Assembly (NCBI RefSeq): GCF_000526395.1
Contig: NZ_JAFZ01000001.1
Location: 124,001 to 188,000, forward strand
DNA length: 64,000 nt
DNA from: Aminobacterium mobile DSM 12262
GTDB lineage: Bacteria; Synergistota; Synergistia; Synergistales; Aminobacteriaceae
Direction of reading: 5' to 3'
In this document: one piece after another, positions 40,535-47,809 of the stretch
How positions within the stretch are numbered: position 1 is the stretch's first letter
Layout of the letters: each line of letters begins with the position of its first letter
Translations under genes and position numbers: made by a program
The notes under the pieces: model-generated
Seen by the model: the letters and a program-made list of their open reading frames with translations, nothing else
Databases searched by the model: none
Told to the model about the DNA's origin: nothing

Positions 40535-40624
40535 CATACATATAGAGGGTATTATGATATGATATTTATAAATCCTATCTTTTTAATAGTCTTTTTATAG
40601 AGAGAAAAAGGAGTGAAGGAAATA

Positions 40625-42781
40625 ATGGGAAATGAAGAAAGTGCTAAAAAAGTTTCTTTTTCTGTAACAGGTATGACATGCGCAACCTGTGCCAGAATGG
40701 TTGAACGATCTCTAAAAAAAGTGGATGGTGTCGTTTTTGCCGGCGTGAATCTTGCCACAGAGACGGCATTTGTTGTTCTTGAGAAGGATGTTCCCATGGA
40801 AATTTTAGAAGAAGCTGTTCGTAACGCTGGATATAATGTTTCCTACGAGGCACCGGAAGATCTGGATCGTCGTCGTTACCAGATTGCCCGCAAAAATTTA
40901 ATTCTCAGCTGGATTCTTACTGTTCCTCTAATGGCTTTCATGTTTGCTCATATGGCAGGTTTTCATATGCCGTGGTTCCCATTGGTCGAGATTTTAGGCG
41001 GTGCCATTGTCCTTTTTGGGGCGGGGCACTCTTCTATGCAAGGAGCTTGGATTGCTCTTACACATTCTCATGCGAATATGGATGTCCTCGTCTCTTTGGG
41101 AGCTCTCGCTGCATGGGCTACTTCTCTTCTCTCTTTGAGCGGTGTGCATGTAACCTCTTTTGGATCTATTGGAGCAATGATTATTGCTTTACATGTGACC
41201 GGTCGTTTTATCGAGTCTCACTTAAGAGATCGGGCTTCCAAGGAGATAAAGGCCTTATTGGAAATTCAAGCTCGAGAAGCACGGGTTCTTAACGAAAATG
41301 GTACGGAAATAGCCATTCCTATTGAAGCAGTAAAAGAAGGCTTTACCCTCATTGTTCGTCCAGGAGAAAGAATTCCTGCAGATGGGCGTATTACAGATGG
41401 AATCACATCAGTAGATGAATCTATGATTACTGGGGAGTCCTTACCTGTGCAGAAAAAACAAGGTGATAGCGTAACAGGAGGTTCTCTGAACCTTACAGGT
41501 CCTTTAAAAGTTCAGGCAACACACGTTGGAGAGGATAGCTTCCTTTCACAGATGATCTCTCTTATTCAGGAAGCCCAAGGGGCAAAAATTCCTATACAGG
41601 CCTTTGCCGATCGCGTTACGAACTATTTTGTCCCTGCCGTAGCAACTCTTGCCCTTATAAGTGCTTTTTTCTGGTATTTTGGGGTGGATCGGTTCGGCTT
41701 TTTTCTTGATACCGCTGCTCGCTACCTCCCATGGGTTACAACTGTCAGAGATCCCCTCTCTCTTGCCATTTTTGGCTTTATATCCACCATTGTCATTGCT
41801 TGTCCCTGTGCCTTGGGGCTTGCCACTCCTATGGCTCTTATTACGGGGACTGGCGCGGCTTCAAGGAAGGGACTTATTATTCGAAATGCTGAAGCCATCC
41901 AAACGGCGAAAGAAGTTGGGATTGTGCTCATGGATAAAACAGGGACCCTTACCCAAGGGCATCCTTCTGTTGTAGATATCCAGGTCTCCGAAGAGGATTT
42001 AGAGGCTGTTGCGGCATTGGAGCGGCATTCTCTCCATCCCTTGGCGAAAGCTGTAGCAGCAGTGAAAAGAACGGACATAGAACCTAATTCCGTGGAGGAG
42101 ATTATGGGAGAGGGAGTTAAAGGAACCATACGGGGAGAGGAATACTTTATTGGGAAACCTCAGGATCCTTCAAGGTACAATGAACAGCTTCTGTTGGGGC
42201 GTACGGTAGTAGAGGTTCAAAAGGGTGGCGTAGTTGTGGGGTTTCTTGCGATAGAAGATTCTCTTCGGGAGGATGGGGTTCGGGCAGTATCTCATCTGAA
42301 GAAGCTTGGCATTGTTCCTGTAATGGTGACAGGAGATAATGAAAGGACTGCGCAAGCGGTTGCCAAGCAAGTAGGAATTAATGAAGTTTATGCCGGAGTT
42401 CGGCCGGGAGAAAAATTGGATATATTGAGAAGATATCAAGCTATGGGGCGAAAGGTTCTTATGGTTGGAGATGGGATGAATGATGCGGCAGCATTAAAGG
42501 GCGCAGACATTGGCGTAGCTATTGGCTCTGGCACCGATCTTGCCATTGACAGCGCAGATATGGTAGTAGTGAAAGGTGGAGTTTCTGCTATTGTTGATGC
42601 CATCCATATCTCAAGGCAAACTTTTACGGTTATTCGTCAAAATCTTTTCTGGGCTTTCGCCTATAATATTATTGCTATTCCTTTAGCTATGGGGGCCCTG
42701 CTCCATCCTGCAATTGCTGAAACAGCTATGGCGTTTAGTTCCATCTCTGTTATTTTGAATTCCATGCGGATTCGTTCCTAA
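40625..42781 (+). CDS. copA: Copper-translocating P1B-type ATPase
   Basis: 718 residues from the ATG at 40625; a GTG at 40613 has no room for a ribosome site. One N-terminal HMA domain with [10 protein letters not shown], eight hydrophobic segments, the actuator TGES motif, [10 protein letters not shown] in the sixth membrane helix, the phosphorylation site DKTGTLT, an HP motif in HSLHPLAKA and [15 protein letters not shown] in helix 7 and MAFSSISV (MxxSS) in helix 8 are the Cu+ signature. It exports Cu+ with ATP. A separate terminator upstream suggests its own promoter. Confidence 0.94.
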
Positions 42782-42885: not shown

Positions 42886-43146
42886 CTAGCAATGACCGTG
42901 ACAGCCTGAACAGCCTCCGCCGCACCCGCTGCACCCACCATTACGGAGAGCATCGATAGCGGGTACGAATACATCAAGAATATCTTCCAGGTCATTCACC
43001 CCTTCATCAGCATCGGTGAGACCAAAAGCTTCTTTTATTGCAGGAACTGTATCGGCACCATCTACAATAGCCTGTACTATGTCACGGAGCGTAATGTCTT
43101 TCGACGTAATGACCACAGTTTCTCCAGGAACCATACCCCAGTCCAT
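42886..43146 (-). CDS. Small acidic protein with Cys-rich tail, unknown function
   Basis: 86 residues. The first 65 are acidic and helical (ITLRDIVQAIVDGADTVPA, then LEDILDVFVPAIDAL). The last 16 carry six cysteines and two histidines in CSGCGGGCSGCHGHC, a likely metal or cluster site. I do not recognise a named family; the first part vaguely recalls small [2Fe-2S] BFD-type domains. AAGGAGG precedes the ATG, so it is probably expressed. It converges with copA, which makes a copper or other soft-metal buffer conceivable but unproven. Confidence 0.7.
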   Translation of the reverse strand: MDWGMVPGETVVITSKDITLRDIVQAIVDGADTVPAIKEAFGLTDADEGVNDLEDILDVFVPAIDALRNGGCSGCGGGCSGCHGHC

Positions 43147-43370
43147 ATTCTTTACCTCCTTATAGAAAACATGGTGGTATTGTAAAGGAAAAGAAGGAAA
43201 AAATAAATAGAATATTTTCAGGCTCTCCTTTCCTGTATGACTCCTTTGTTTCCATGAATGTGAAGGGTTTTTAGGCTCGGTTGTTTTTATCTTTTTTATC
43301 TCAAAAATATTATTAATAAGGGATAATTTTTTATGAAAAAAAGAAAAATGCTTTTAAAAAATAAATTGTA

Positions 43371-43400
43371 TTGACTTTTTTGTCGAATAGAGTGTAAAGT
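43371..43400 (+). promoter_or_regulatory. Promoter of the cobalamin riboswitch transcript
   Basis: TTGACT (43371-43376) and TAAAGT (43395-43400) are 18 bases apart, placing the start near 43407, just ahead of the aptamer. The segment 43147-43370 before it is AT-rich and shows no gene. Confidence 0.65.
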
Positions 43401-43412
43401 AATAAATACAAT

Positions 43413-43580
43413 AAAACTTCAGCAGGTGTACGGGAAGTCCGGTGAAAAACCGGCGCGGACCCGCCACTGTGTGCTTGATGATGGGACCATATACCACTGG
43501 AAAGAGTTCTTTTCTGGGAAGGGGGGCCCAAAGAGTGAGAGCAAGCCAGGAGACCGGCCTGATGAAGAGATGCAAGTTCC
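43413..43580 (+). ncRNA. Cobalamin riboswitch aptamer
   Basis: The conserved elements of the AdoCbl/B12 class occur in order: AGGTGTACGGGAAGTCCGGT near 43422-43442, CCGGCGCGGACCCGCCACTG at about 43450-43469, and the B12 box AGCCAGGAGACCGGCC at 43544-43559. The length between them fits the class. Downstream a conditional terminator (43661-43691) stands just before the first gene, so B12 binding should reduce expression by termination. The regulated genes are not known B12 synthesis or uptake genes, which is unusual. Confidence 0.92.
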
Positions 43581-43660
43581 CGCGAGGATTCGGGAAGGCT
43601 TGTGGAAAAGCCTCTCTTAAAAGATAAAGGGGCAATTTCGCTTTTAAACTCTTAGCCTTT

Positions 43661-43691
43661 AATGGCCGTCCTCGGGGGACGGCCATTTTTT
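43661..43691 (+). terminator. Riboswitch expression-platform terminator
   Basis: An 11-bp stem (43661-43671 with 43677-43687) capped by TCGGG is followed by T residues and ends about 20 bases before the start codon of the first gene. Confidence 0.85.
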
Positions 43692-43711
43692 ATTATAGGA
43701 GGATGAGAGTT

Positions 43712-44206
43712 ATGAAGCGGGAGCACGTGGATTTGTTCCAGAACTCCGTAAACCCAAGTAGGTTTACTTTGCTTGAGCAGACGGTAAATGCGCTGGAAGC
43801 AAATGGCACATCTCTTCCAGAAGAATATACACGCAGCACCATCCTTTCTCCCATAGATCGATACATTTCCTATGTGAATGGATGTTTGAACAGGGACGGA
43901 AATATTGTGATTTCCGCAGATTTTCTTGAGAATTCGCGCTTACTCATTAACACATTGCGGAAAGATATTGAGGCTATTTCTGTTCCTCACGAAGAAGACC
44001 TCCAACTCAAGGGCAGAGAAAAGGCTCTCTTTGTTGAAGCTCACCTCAATCTTATCAATGCTGCTCGAGATTGGATGAGCGCTGTTGCTTCGGAGTCTTC
44101 AAGCGAGACAATAAAGATCTATCTTTTATATTGCCGAGCCTGCCTCCGTTCTTTGAGGCTTTTAGAACCTTTATGGTGTAGTCGTGAAAAGGAGGCCATC
44201 GCATAA
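43712..44206 (+). CDS. Small helical protein of unknown function under B12 riboswitch control
   Basis: 164 residues from the ATG at 43712, nine bases after AGGAGG; the ATG at 43703 is too close to that site. The sequence is predicted almost wholly helical, with SADFLENSRLLINTLRKDIE and LLYCRACLRSLRLLEPLW. I cannot place it in a family. A distant relation to cobalamin adenosyltransferases would suit the riboswitch, but I see none of their ATP-binding motifs and do not claim it. Its stop overlaps the start of the acyl-CoA synthetase (TAATG), so the two products are probably made in step. Confidence 0.7.
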   Translation: MKREHVDLFQNSVNPSRFTLLEQTVNALEANGTSLPEEYTRSTILSPIDRYISYVNGCLNRDGNIVISADFLENSRLLINTLRKDIEAISVPHEEDLQLKGREKALFVEAHLNLINAARDWMSAVASESSSETIKIYLLYCRACLRSLRLLEPLWCSREKEAIA

Positions 44207-46311
44207 TGAATTGTCAGAACCATCCCCTTTCTCCTCTTTTTGCTCCACGTAGCATTGCTATTGTAGGAGCGTCTGCCAATCTTGATAGCCTTACTGGGCG
44301 TACGGTTAAAGCGTTACAACGTTTCGGATATGATGGGACTATCTACCCCGTTAATCCCAAATACGACACGGTAGGAGGTCTCCCCTGCTATAAAGATTTA
44401 GCTCATATCCCTACTTCAACTGATGTGGCTCTTATTAGTGTCAAGGCCCATCTTGTCCCATCTATTCTTCGAACATGCGTTCAAAAAGATATTCATCATG
44501 TGATTATTTATTCCTCTGGTTTTGCTGAAGCTGGCGATGGGTCTCTCCAAAAAGAAATGATGGATGTTGCTCGTGGAGGAAATATCCGCATTCTGGGGCC
44601 TAACTGTCAAGGGCTTCTGAACCTCTCTGAAGGAATACCCCTCACTTTCTCGGGAGCTCTTTACAATGCAGAACCTCCAGCGCCTGGACACGTGGCCTTT
44701 GTTTCTCAAAGCGGAGCGTTTGGTTTTTCTTCTTTTGGTGTGGGGCTTGATTATGGCGTTCGATATCGATATGTGGTGACGACAGGGAATCAAGCTGACA
44801 TCGACGCTGTAGAGTGTGCCGGATATGTTATTACCGATCCGGAAGTTCGCCTTCTCATGATGTATCTTGAAGGCATTGAAAACGGGGAACGCTTTCTGGA
44901 ACTGGTTCGAGAAGCGAGAGAACGAGATATTGCAGTAGCCGTATTAAAGGCGGGGCGTTCCCCCTCTGCTCAAAAAGCTGCGCGTAGCCATACGGCAGCT
45001 CTTACGGGAGATGACGCTGTCTGGAACGCAATTTTTGCCCAATATGGTGTTATTCCCTTAAAAGACATGGACGATATTATTGGCATAGGGCAGCTTTTTG
45101 GTGCTGCTCCTCGTACTGCTGGTGATAAGGCTGCTATTCTTACTACTTCTGGTGGTGCTGGTATTGTTATGGCTGATTGTCTTAGTGATTTAAAAATGAA
45201 GGTCCCCGAGTTTTCAAATCAAACTCGTCAGGAAATTGGGGAGGCGATTCCCTCTTTTGGTGCCTCGAGAAACCCAGTGGATATGACAGTTCAGATTTCA
45301 GAAAAGCCGGATAATTTTCGTCACGTTCTTAATGCGGCTCTTCATGACCCTAATATAGACATGGTAATCACCGCTCTCTCCATGATTGTTGGCGATGCTG
45401 GGGCTCTGATGGCAGATGAGTTGATTAAGAGCTACCAGAACACAAATAAGCCTCAAGCAGCAGTATGGATGATTGACAACGATCATGGGGGAGCCTTTAT
45501 TGAGCGTCTCAAAGCATCTGGTTTCCCTATATTTCAAAGTTTCAGACAGTGTGCACGAGCTTTGAAGGCTTTAAGAAATTGGGAGAATCGACTCCCCTTC
45601 CCTGTCACGAAAGTAGCGTATCGAGATCCTATATTGCGCTCTTTCCCTCCTAAATTGACAGAGTACGATGCAAAGCGATTGCTGGATAGATATCATATTC
45701 CTGTAACAAAGGAACGGCTTTGTCGCGATATGGAGGAGGCTTTTGATGCGGCGGAAGAAATTGGTTTCCCCGTGGCGCTCAAAGGTATGTCTGCAGAAAT
45801 TTTTCATAAAACGGAAGCTGATATTGTTACATTGGATATTCGTTCTTTTGATGAAATGCGCCATGCTTTGAAACGGACGAGAGAAAATTTAAAAAAACAT
45901 GTTTCAGATCATGAGATACAAGGGTTTCTCGTTCAGGAAATGGTAAAAGGTGGCATGGAGTGTATTGTGGGAGTAAAGCGAGATCCGGTTTTTGGCCCTA
46001 TTGTAGCCGTAGGTTTAGGGGGTATTTATGTAGAGGTGCTCAGTGACGTATCTCTTCGTCATGCCCCGGTAGATGAAAAAGAAGCACTCTGTATGATAAA
46101 GAAGCTGAAAGGGTACGGTTTCCTCTCAGGAGCGAGGGGACAGCGGCATAGAGATGTGGAGGCGTTGGCGAAAATTGTAAGTAAGGTTTCCCAATTGGCA
46201 TGCATAGAAGAAGATTTACTAGAGCTCGATATCAATCCTGTTTTCGTCATGCCTGAAGGAGAAGGAGCAGTAGCCGCAGATGCTCTTGTAATTCGGCGAA
46301 ATGGATATTGA
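44206..46311 (+). CDS. ADP-forming acetyl/acyl-CoA synthetase, fused alpha and beta subunits
   Basis: 701 residues. A CoA-binding Rossmann domain (IAIVGASANLDSLTGRTVKA, about 17-36) and ligase domains follow, with the likely phospho-histidine His262 in ARSHTAALTGDD, then an ATP-grasp domain (about 475-695, FPVALKGMSAEIFHKTEAD). The enzyme converts acyl-CoA, ADP and phosphate to the acid, CoA and ATP, the energy-saving end step of amino-acid fermentation. A B12 riboswitch upstream suggests that its acyl-CoA comes from or feeds a B12-dependent route such as methylmalonyl-CoA to propionyl-CoA, or that it works when B12 is short; both are inference. Confidence 0.92.
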   Translation: MNCQNHPLSPLFAPRSIAIVGASANLDSLTGRTVKALQRFGYDGTIYPVNPKYDTVGGLPCYKDLAHIPTSTDVALISVKAHLVPSILRTCVQKDIHHVIIYSSGFAEAGDGSLQKEMMDVARGGNIRILGPNCQGLLNLSEGIPLTFSGALYNAEPPAPGHVAFVSQSGAFGFSSFGVGLDYGVRYRYVVTTGNQADIDAVECAGYVITDPEVRLLMMYLEGIENGERFLELVREARERDIAVAVLKAGRSPSAQKAARSHTAALTGDDAVWNAIFAQYGVIPLKDMDDIIGIGQLFGAAPRTAGDKAAILTTSGGAGIVMADCLSDLKMKVPEFSNQTRQEIGEAIPSFGASRNPVDMTVQISEKPDNFRHVLNAALHDPNIDMVITALSMIVGDAGALMADELIKSYQNTNKPQAAVWMIDNDHGGAFIERLKASGFPIFQSFRQCARALKALRNWENRLPFPVTKVAYRDPILRSFPPKLTEYDAKRLLDRYHIPVTKERLCRDMEEAFDAAEEIGFPVALKGMSAEIFHKTEADIVTLDIRSFDEMRHALKRTRENLKKHVSDHEIQGFLVQEMVKGGMECIVGVKRDPVFGPIVAVGLGGIYVEVLSDVSLRHAPVDEKEALCMIKKLKGYGFLSGARGQRHRDVEALAKIVSKVSQLACIEEDLLELDINPVFVMPEGEGAVAADALVIRRNGY

Positions 46312-46398
46312 AAGGAGGCCGCTTTCCCCTCAAGGCACGTAGACAATATAGTGTAGCTTGCAAGACTATGTAGTTGCCATCATTACCCATTTGTTCAG

Positions 46399-46437
46399 CA
46401 CCCCGAATGTTAGATTTCAAATCTAACATTTGGGGTG
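46399..46437 (+). terminator. Long hairpin after the acyl-CoA synthetase, probable terminator
   Basis: Two 19-base arms (46399-46417 and 46419-46437) pair with one G-T wobble and a minimal loop. TACTTTTCT follows. The hairpin lies about 90 bases after the stop codon and shares the outer pattern AATG...CATTTGG with the hairpin at 1400-1438. Confidence 0.65.
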
Positions 46438-46546
46438 TACTTTTCTAAAGATCCTGCCTTTTTTTGGTTTATCCGGGATTTAACGGTATAATATATTAAT
46501 GTCAAACTATATAAACAAATATAAATATATGAAGGAGGAATGATCA

Positions 46547-47809
46547 GTGGCCTGTGCTCCCGTTTACGAAACAAGGCCGGTACGTATTCAGCGCGATATA
46601 AAACACATTGCTTCATTGGGGAAAGACAAGGCCGGACGAACCTGTTTTACCTATAGTCAACAGGATAAAGACGTTCGTGATTTTTTGATTGAAACGCTTC
46701 AAGGTCTGAATCTCTCTATTGCAGTGGATGGGGTAGGGAATATTCGTGCTCGATATGAAGGAAAGAGTCCTGATGCTCCTATAGTGATGAGTGGTTCTCA
46801 CATTGATTCCGTGCGGCAGGGCGGGAAATTTGACGGTGTGGCCGGTGTTGTCGCGGCCCTTGAAGCGGTGCGAACAATGGTAGATGAAGGGCTTGTTCCG
46901 ATACATCCGGTGGAAGTTGTTATCTTCTCTGAGGAAGAAGGGGCGAACTTTGGGCCTTGCTGCGCTGGCAGCAAAGCTATGATTGGCCGATATACAGTGA
47001 AAGACTTGAAAAAACTGAAAACCCCAGCAGGTACGTCTATGTACACTATGGCTCAAGAGTGTGGTTATAATCCAGATTCCATGCCTAACAGTGTTTTACG
47101 TCCTGGAGATGTAAAAGCTTTTTTAGAGCTTCATATAGAACAGGGGCCATCTCTTGATGCAGCAGGTGTTCCAATAGGAATTGTGGAAGCTATTAACGGT
47201 CTTCGGCAGATGAGGGTAGACGTTCGAGGCGTGGCGAATCATGCAGGAGGAACTCTTATGGCCTTGCGGCAAGATAGTCTCCTTGCTGCTTCCCGTATGA
47301 TTCTAGCAGTAGAAGAAATCGTGCGGGAGGAAGGGGCTGATACTACAGTGGGAACTGTAGGACACATAGAGTGCAGCCCAAATGTATGGAATATTATTCC
47401 AGGGAGAGTAACTTTTTCTATTGATATTCGCGATGTCTGTGAGAAGACAATGGATAGAGTTGTAGAGAAAGTGAAAGAGCGCATCCAAGATATTGCAACA
47501 GCATGTCATGTAGAAAGCAGAGTCTCTTCCCTTGCTTCTTTGGAAGCGGTGCGTCTCTCCCCTCAAGTTATCGAAGTTTTGGAGAAAAAAGCTAAAGAGC
47601 TAGGTACCCCTTACAAAAAAATAAATAGTGGGGCTGTTCATGATGCGGTACTGCTTCGATCTATAACTGATGTAGGTATGATCTTTGTCCCAAGCATTGG
47701 GGGGCGAAGTCATTGTCCAGAGGAAGAGACAGATGTTGAAGATATTAAGAAGGGTGCAGATATTCTTCTTGCTTCTATTCTGGAATTAGCAGGTTTTGTA
47801 AAAGAATAG
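46547..47809 (+). CDS. M20-family amidohydrolase (N-carbamoyl-amino-acid hydrolase / allantoate amidohydrolase type)
   Basis: 420 residues from a GTG at 46547 with AAGGAGG upstream. Zinc-binding and catalytic motifs of the hydantoinase/carbamoylase group are present: GSHIDSVRQGGKFDGVAGV (about 83-101), FSEEEGANFG and ELHIEQGPSLDAAG, then a lid domain with VANHAGGTLMALRQD. The late GGRSHCPEEET supplies the last metal ligand. Substrates in this group include N-carbamoyl-L-amino acids, ureidopropionate and allantoate; the one used here is unknown. It stands alone between two hairpins. Confidence 0.88.
   Translation: MACAPVYETRPVRIQRDIKHIASLGKDKAGRTCFTYSQQDKDVRDFLIETLQGLNLSIAVDGVGNIRARYEGKSPDAPIVMSGSHIDSVRQGGKFDGVAGVVAALEAVRTMVDEGLVPIHPVEVVIFSEEEGANFGPCCAGSKAMIGRYTVKDLKKLKTPAGTSMYTMAQECGYNPDSMPNSVLRPGDVKAFLELHIEQGPSLDAAGVPIGIVEAINGLRQMRVDVRGVANHAGGTLMALRQDSLLAASRMILAVEEIVREEGADTTVGTVGHIECSPNVWNIIPGRVTFSIDIRDVCEKTMDRVVEKVKERIQDIATACHVESRVSSLASLEAVRLSPQVIEVLEKKAKELGTPYKKINSGAVHDAVLLRSITDVGMIFVPSIGGRSHCPEEETDVEDIKKGADILLASILELAGFVKE

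Follow-up and report, generated by a model that had tools for sequence, protein, structure and literature searches.

Why should a cobalamin riboswitch stand before an ADP-forming acyl-CoA synthetase? The usual targets of cobalamin riboswitches are B12 uptake, B12 synthesis, cobalt transport and isozymes of B12 enzymes (PMC3766115). An earlier note on this DNA had described a well-formed B12 aptamer and terminator ahead of a two-gene unit, and had proposed either a B12-independent energy route used when B12 is scarce or a small protein that itself handles B12. We analyzed the window, a stretch of 64,000 nucleotides from the 2.1-Mb genome (G000) of an amino-acid-fermenting member of Synergistota, together with two close relatives in the same genus (G001 and G002) and, more broadly, a search set of 183 genomes of the class. 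The locus consists of the following features.

43371 to 43400, plus strand: sigma-70-like promoter (TTGACT-18 nt-TAAAGT), a consensus match only, directly 5' of the aptamer
43407 to 43576, plus strand: cobalamin riboswitch aptamer (RF00174, by covariance model), with the B12 box AGCCAGGAGACCGGCC on its 3' side
43661 to 43687, plus strand: intrinsic terminator within the expression platform, 12 pairs (AATGGCCGTCCTCGGGGGACGGCCATT and then a T-rich tail)
43712 to 44206, plus strand: gene for an orphan helical protein of 164 amino acids, ATG at 43712, 164 codons
44206 to 46311, plus strand: ADP-forming acyl-CoA synthetase, fused alpha-beta, 701 amino acids, ATG at 44206-44208
46398 to 46438, plus strand: terminator-like hairpin closing the transcription unit, 19 pairs, loop of 3

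The aptamer and terminator proved as well formed as the earlier note had held. The match to RF00174 covers the full model (1-189) with a score of 98.5 bits (E 2.2e-23; gathering score, 31.5); it is the sole gathering-level Rfam match within the 64 kb, and its score together with its conservation rules out a chance match. A match to suhB (RF00519) at 43625-43700 fell under its gathering score and is accounted for by the terminator hairpin. Promoter-like sites are weak alone, with 8 found and 6.5 expected in shuffles, yet this one adjoins the aptamer. The two-gene unit also held up: the stop codon of the small gene and the start codon of the synthetase gene overlap as TAATG. An alternative ATG for the small gene at 43703 overlaps the AGGAGG Shine-Dalgarno sequence and is a less likely start. 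The next gene, of the M20/hydantoinase family, begins at 46547, beyond the closing hairpin. We looked for a third B12 gene that might be the real target and found none within the unit; because the strong terminator at 46398-46438 closes it, no third gene is hidden there. The order of promoter, riboswitch, small gene and synthetase is kept in both G001 and G002 and is thus not a chance reading. G000 has one other cobalamin riboswitch, for a total of two, and it lies upstream of a gene for a TonB-dependent receptor, among whose family matches is, below cut-off, a vitamin B12 receptor model.

Which of the two genes is the target of the riboswitch? Of the 183 genomes, 40 encode a close synthetase relative (E up to 1e-200). 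One group, with 66-79% identity to the window copy, comprises eight genomes (G000, G001, G002, G007, G014, G038, G070 and G071), and a riboswitch lies upstream of the synthetase in all eight. The pairing spans five genera and includes Fretibacterium fastidiosum (G007). In five of these genomes (G007, G014, G038, G070 and G071) the small gene is absent and the synthetase is the first gene behind the riboswitch. In a maximum-likelihood tree, which left out G001 because of its split reading frame and represented G070 and G071 by L048 and L049, the riboswitch-linked synthetases form one clade with support of 100/100. Thus, comparison of these genomes indicates that the synthetase is the conserved target of the riboswitch, since the riboswitch precedes it in every genome of the group, five of which lack the small gene. 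The reading frame of G001 (L031 700-1700, minus strand) is broken by a frameshift that falls in the linker joining the alpha and beta halves, with the beta half conserved downstream; the cause may be a sequencing error or a recent mutation, or the enzyme may be split.

The nearest relatives of the riboswitch clade lie mostly beside plsY and share 48-55% identity with it where both are intact. Unlike the window copy, the plsY-linked orthologues that we inspected have no riboswitch upstream. The genus of the window and G038 also keep a plsY-linked copy, in which the CoA-binding motifs VGAS and GPNCQG are replaced, while the riboswitch-linked copy keeps every catalytic motif that we looked at. 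Because the plsY-linked copy is degenerate, it is the B12-controlled gene that has its catalytic motifs intact. In G000 the plsY-linked copy (L193 8183-10231, minus strand, on G000:C2) has lost its CoA-binding motifs but has kept its frame and much of its beta domain, and the plsY-linked copy of the genus is possibly a pseudoenzyme with a new role. A similar loss of CoA-binding motifs occurs in Dethiosulfovibrio and other lineages.

The leaders of the eight genomes suggest how the switch would work. The 5' arm of the terminator is GGCCGTCC in seven of them and GGCTGTCC in G002, where the 3' arm has changed to match. In all eight, the arm could pair with CGGCC and AGGA in the B12 box, and the complementarity persists where much of the surrounding leader has diverged. 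Judged by sequence, the expression platform is mutually exclusive with the aptamer core. This layout is that of the classical OFF design, in which the aptamer core without ligand acts as an antiterminator, and predicts that the switch is OFF with cobalamin. With adenosylcobalamin (AdoCbl) bound, the B12 box would be held in the aptamer, the terminator would form and transcription would stop before both genes. With AdoCbl scarce, the B12 box would be free to form an antiterminator with the terminator's 5' arm, and both genes would be made, the small protein and the synthetase probably by translational coupling. Most cobalamin riboswitches repress upon binding (PMC11575231). The high-GC leaders of G007 and G014 have no clear U-run after the hairpin, so their platforms may act on translation.

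What would such a switch achieve by controlling this enzyme? Enzymes of this family convert acyl-CoA, ADP and phosphate to the free acid, CoA and ATP. The three domains of the window synthetase (PF13380, PF13607 and PF13549; CoA-binding, Succ_CoA_lig and ATP-grasp_5) are all over cut-off, and its catalytic motifs are present: the SHTAALTG phosphohistidine loop (H262), GPNCQG, TSGGAGI, HKTE and GLGG. It matches the 4-hydroxybutyryl-CoA synthetase of N. maritimus (PDB 8wzu) over its full length (3.4e-117) and shares the domain order, SHTAALTG, HKTE and GLGG with that enzyme, with ACS1-5 of P. furiosus and with ACS3 of T. kodakarensis. Unlike these enzymes, it is a fused alpha-beta protein under riboswitch control, it belongs to a separate Synergistota clade and it falls below all equivalog cut-offs. 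The curated equivalogs for acetate-, 4-hydroxybutyrate- and 3-hydroxypropionate-CoA ligases gave 353-446 bits against cut-offs of 567-1300, the best matches being far below cut-off (e.g., 446 versus 1300 bits). The sequence thus does not fix the substrate, and acetyl-CoA would fit as well as succinyl-CoA or propionyl-CoA.

We therefore considered the metabolism of the host. G000 carries a cluster at about G000:C1:1244170-1250880 with the following genes.

Methylmalonyl-CoA mutase, two subunits (TIGR00641 and TIGR00640)
MeaB (TIGR00750)
Methylmalonyl-CoA decarboxylase alpha and gamma subunits (best matches TIGR01117 and NF047903-like, below cut-off)
Na+-pump beta subunit (TIGR01109)

The cluster has no riboswitch; the two of the genome lie elsewhere. 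In G000, PF02310 gave one strong match, to the B12-binding domain of the mutase. Three others are weak; the frame that holds one of these reads as IMP dehydrogenase by its sequence, which makes a chance match likely. All six of the riboswitch-synthetase genomes that we examined encode a mutase. Family searches, on which the genome-wide absences in G000 rest, detected no CobS in G000, G001 or G002, the three members of the genus, against 41 of 61 relatives with it, and found no SucC-type ATP-grasp over cut-off in G000. The host probably cannot complete its own B12 synthesis, the absence of CobS being one marker of auxotrophy and not a proof of it. With an AdoCbl-dependent mutase and no CobS found, a shortage of B12 is expected to stall the mutase.

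The reading that we favor, to which we give slightly less than an even chance, is that the OFF riboswitch and the synthetase form a bypass at the succinyl-CoA node under B12 scarcity. We infer the sign of the switch, the substrate and the physiological role within this reading. The main substrate would be succinyl-CoA or, also at this node, propionyl-CoA. Lack of AdoCbl would stop methylmalonyl-CoA mutase and, with it, the conversion of succinyl-CoA via methylmalonyl-CoA to propionyl-CoA by way of the Na+-pumping decarboxylase. The synthetase would then recover CoA and ATP by releasing succinate. CoA-transferases could also dispose of succinyl-CoA. Against this reading, acetate kinase is present, so the synthetase need not be the source of ATP made from acetyl-CoA; as an anticorrelated marker acetate kinase was uninformative, being present in 61 of 61 genomes. 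Xylanibacter ruminicola without cobalamin accumulates succinate instead of propionate (PMC11575231).

Such a bypass would differ from the closest known case. B12-independent isozymes are a recognized class of cobalamin riboswitch targets (PMC3766115; PMC9600662). With metE-class control the window locus shares a full aptamer, a terminator-type platform, complementarity between the B12 box and the terminator arm and a B12-independent target. Unlike that class, its target is no isozyme of a B12 enzyme but would act as a bypass at succinyl-CoA, the substrate of such an enzyme. Conserved B12 control of an acyl-CoA synthetase, an energy-conserving enzyme, would therefore add a target at the substrate node of a B12 enzyme and not at its reaction. 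In the open-access literature that we searched, we found no report that links a cobalamin riboswitch to an ADP-forming synthetase or places one in Synergistetes, and the main text of one riboswitch survey names neither Synergistota nor Aminobacterium (PMC3766115). By sequence, the synthetase is confirmed as a target, and a conserved one, of a riboswitch class that is well known, and the proposed physiological role is plausible. The bypass would also give a testable molecular reason for shifts from propionate to succinate in B12-limited anaerobic communities, such as those of digesters, the gut and the mouth; F. fastidiosum carries this riboswitch-synthetase pair.

How does this reading fare against the other riboswitches of the phylum? 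A cobalamin riboswitch lies directly upstream of the mutA-mutB operon in 11 other Synergistota genomes (G014, G018, G020, G024, G027, G033, G047, G049, G055, G057 and G058; loci L179, L159, L160, L162 and L224-L230), and several of these leaders have terminators. Such switches in Synergistota are thus not confined to B12-independent alternatives. One genome, G014, holds both the mutase riboswitch and the synthetase riboswitch, and a mutase gene of Veillonella has likewise been reported to lie behind a cobalamin riboswitch (PMC7160235). If the mutA switches are OFF switches as well, then the phylum raises genes of the mutase pathway at B12 shortage, and the synthetase may share that response instead of forming a bypass. 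These observations speak for an explanation that we regard as fairly unlikely, namely, that the methylmalonyl-CoA route normally ends with the synthetase, or has it as the propionate-activating step, and that the enzyme is raised at B12 shortage to offset a slow mutase. However, the mutase-decarboxylase cluster in the genus of the window is without a riboswitch, and more of a terminal enzyme does not relieve a mutase starved of its cofactor. The interpretation offered in the earlier note stands in part. The riboswitch does precede the synthetase, a pairing kept in five genera, and the B12-independent energy route is plausible because an AdoCbl-dependent mutase is present and CobS and SucC were not found, but a simple either/or switch leaves the mutA riboswitches of the relatives unexplained. 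G014 has a further cobalamin riboswitch (L178 324-2080), which lies before a gene resembling the large subunit of ethanolamine ammonia-lyase (eutB) by its N-terminal sequence.

The choice of substrate bears on a second alternative, a general energy backup. Here acetyl-CoA or branched acyl-CoA would be converted by the synthetase to acetate or branched-chain acids with a gain of ATP, and B12 control would be part of a broad shift in amino-acid fermentation. The family commonly serves acetyl-CoA and branched acyl-CoA in peptide-fermenting archaea (PMC3942289), and the best NCBIfam matches of the window synthetase include acetate- and hydroxybutyrate-CoA ligases. We nevertheless consider this explanation unlikely; it gives no reason for control by B12, since the mutase was the sole B12 enzyme found to have a strong B12-binding domain.

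Finally, we asked what the small protein contributes. It is coding and constrained, as shown by a dN of 0.08 and a dS of 0.41 between G000 and G001 (NG86), and it is predicted to be helical (AlphaFold2 mean pLDDT of 72 from three sequences). Its identity is 84% between G000 and G001 and 40% to G002. It was found in these three genomes of one genus only, always between the riboswitch and the synthetase, and it had no relatives outside the genus among the 183 genomes. Searches by sequence and profile of Pfam, NCBIfam, PHROGs and PDB gave no convincing family, and those of viral contigs and plasmids placed it on no mobile element. Matches to YqeY (E 0.014) and to PHROG families were weak and partial, the latter scattered over single members, and we rejected both. 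Foldseek with the AlphaFold2 model gave no fold match with E below 0.29, and there was no corrinoid adenosyltransferase or other B12 protein among the fold matches listed. Nor did any adenosyltransferase, B12-binding or B12-transport family match it by sequence or fold.

It is thus very improbable that the small protein is the functional target, binding or salvaging corrinoid with the synthetase as a passenger: its gene directly follows the riboswitch in three genomes, is under constraint and has probably been exchanged between species together with the riboswitch, but it is missing where the riboswitch directly precedes the synthetase in five of the eight genomes, which also excludes it as a conserved target, and the searches found no relatives outside the genus and, among the fold matches listed, no B12 protein. 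The suggestion that it handles B12 was accordingly not borne out. The protein is most simply an accessory of the synthetase, added within the genus.

The exchange is visible in the divergence of the locus. Between G000 (window 43360-44240) and G001 (L234), identity is 86-94% across the promoter, the riboswitch and the small gene, whereas it is near 70% for the flanking copper ATPase and the synthetase, both of which group G001 with G002 (L235). Informative sites in the small gene number 183 joining G000 and G001 versus 17 joining G001 and G002; in the synthetase the counts are 165 and 269, respectively. By this pattern, a block of about 43360-44240, with the promoter at one edge and the synthetase start at the other, has probably been exchanged by recombination between the G000 and G001 lineages. 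The composition of the small gene is not foreign: its codon fit is ordinary, and its GC3 of 0.445 is somewhat high against about 0.35 for the neighbors. It is conceivable, though we hold it doubtful, that AdoCbl supply decides the end product, either propionate via the mutase and the Na+-pumping decarboxylase or succinate and ATP via the induced synthetase, and that the fast-evolving, recombining small protein would be a new accessory of the enzyme.

Upstream in the window, the minus strand encodes a protein of 86 amino acids (42886-43146) with a Cys/Gly/His-rich tail, NGGCSGCGGGCSGCHGHC. It adjoins a heavy-metal ATPase (40613-42781) and is perhaps a metal-binding partner.
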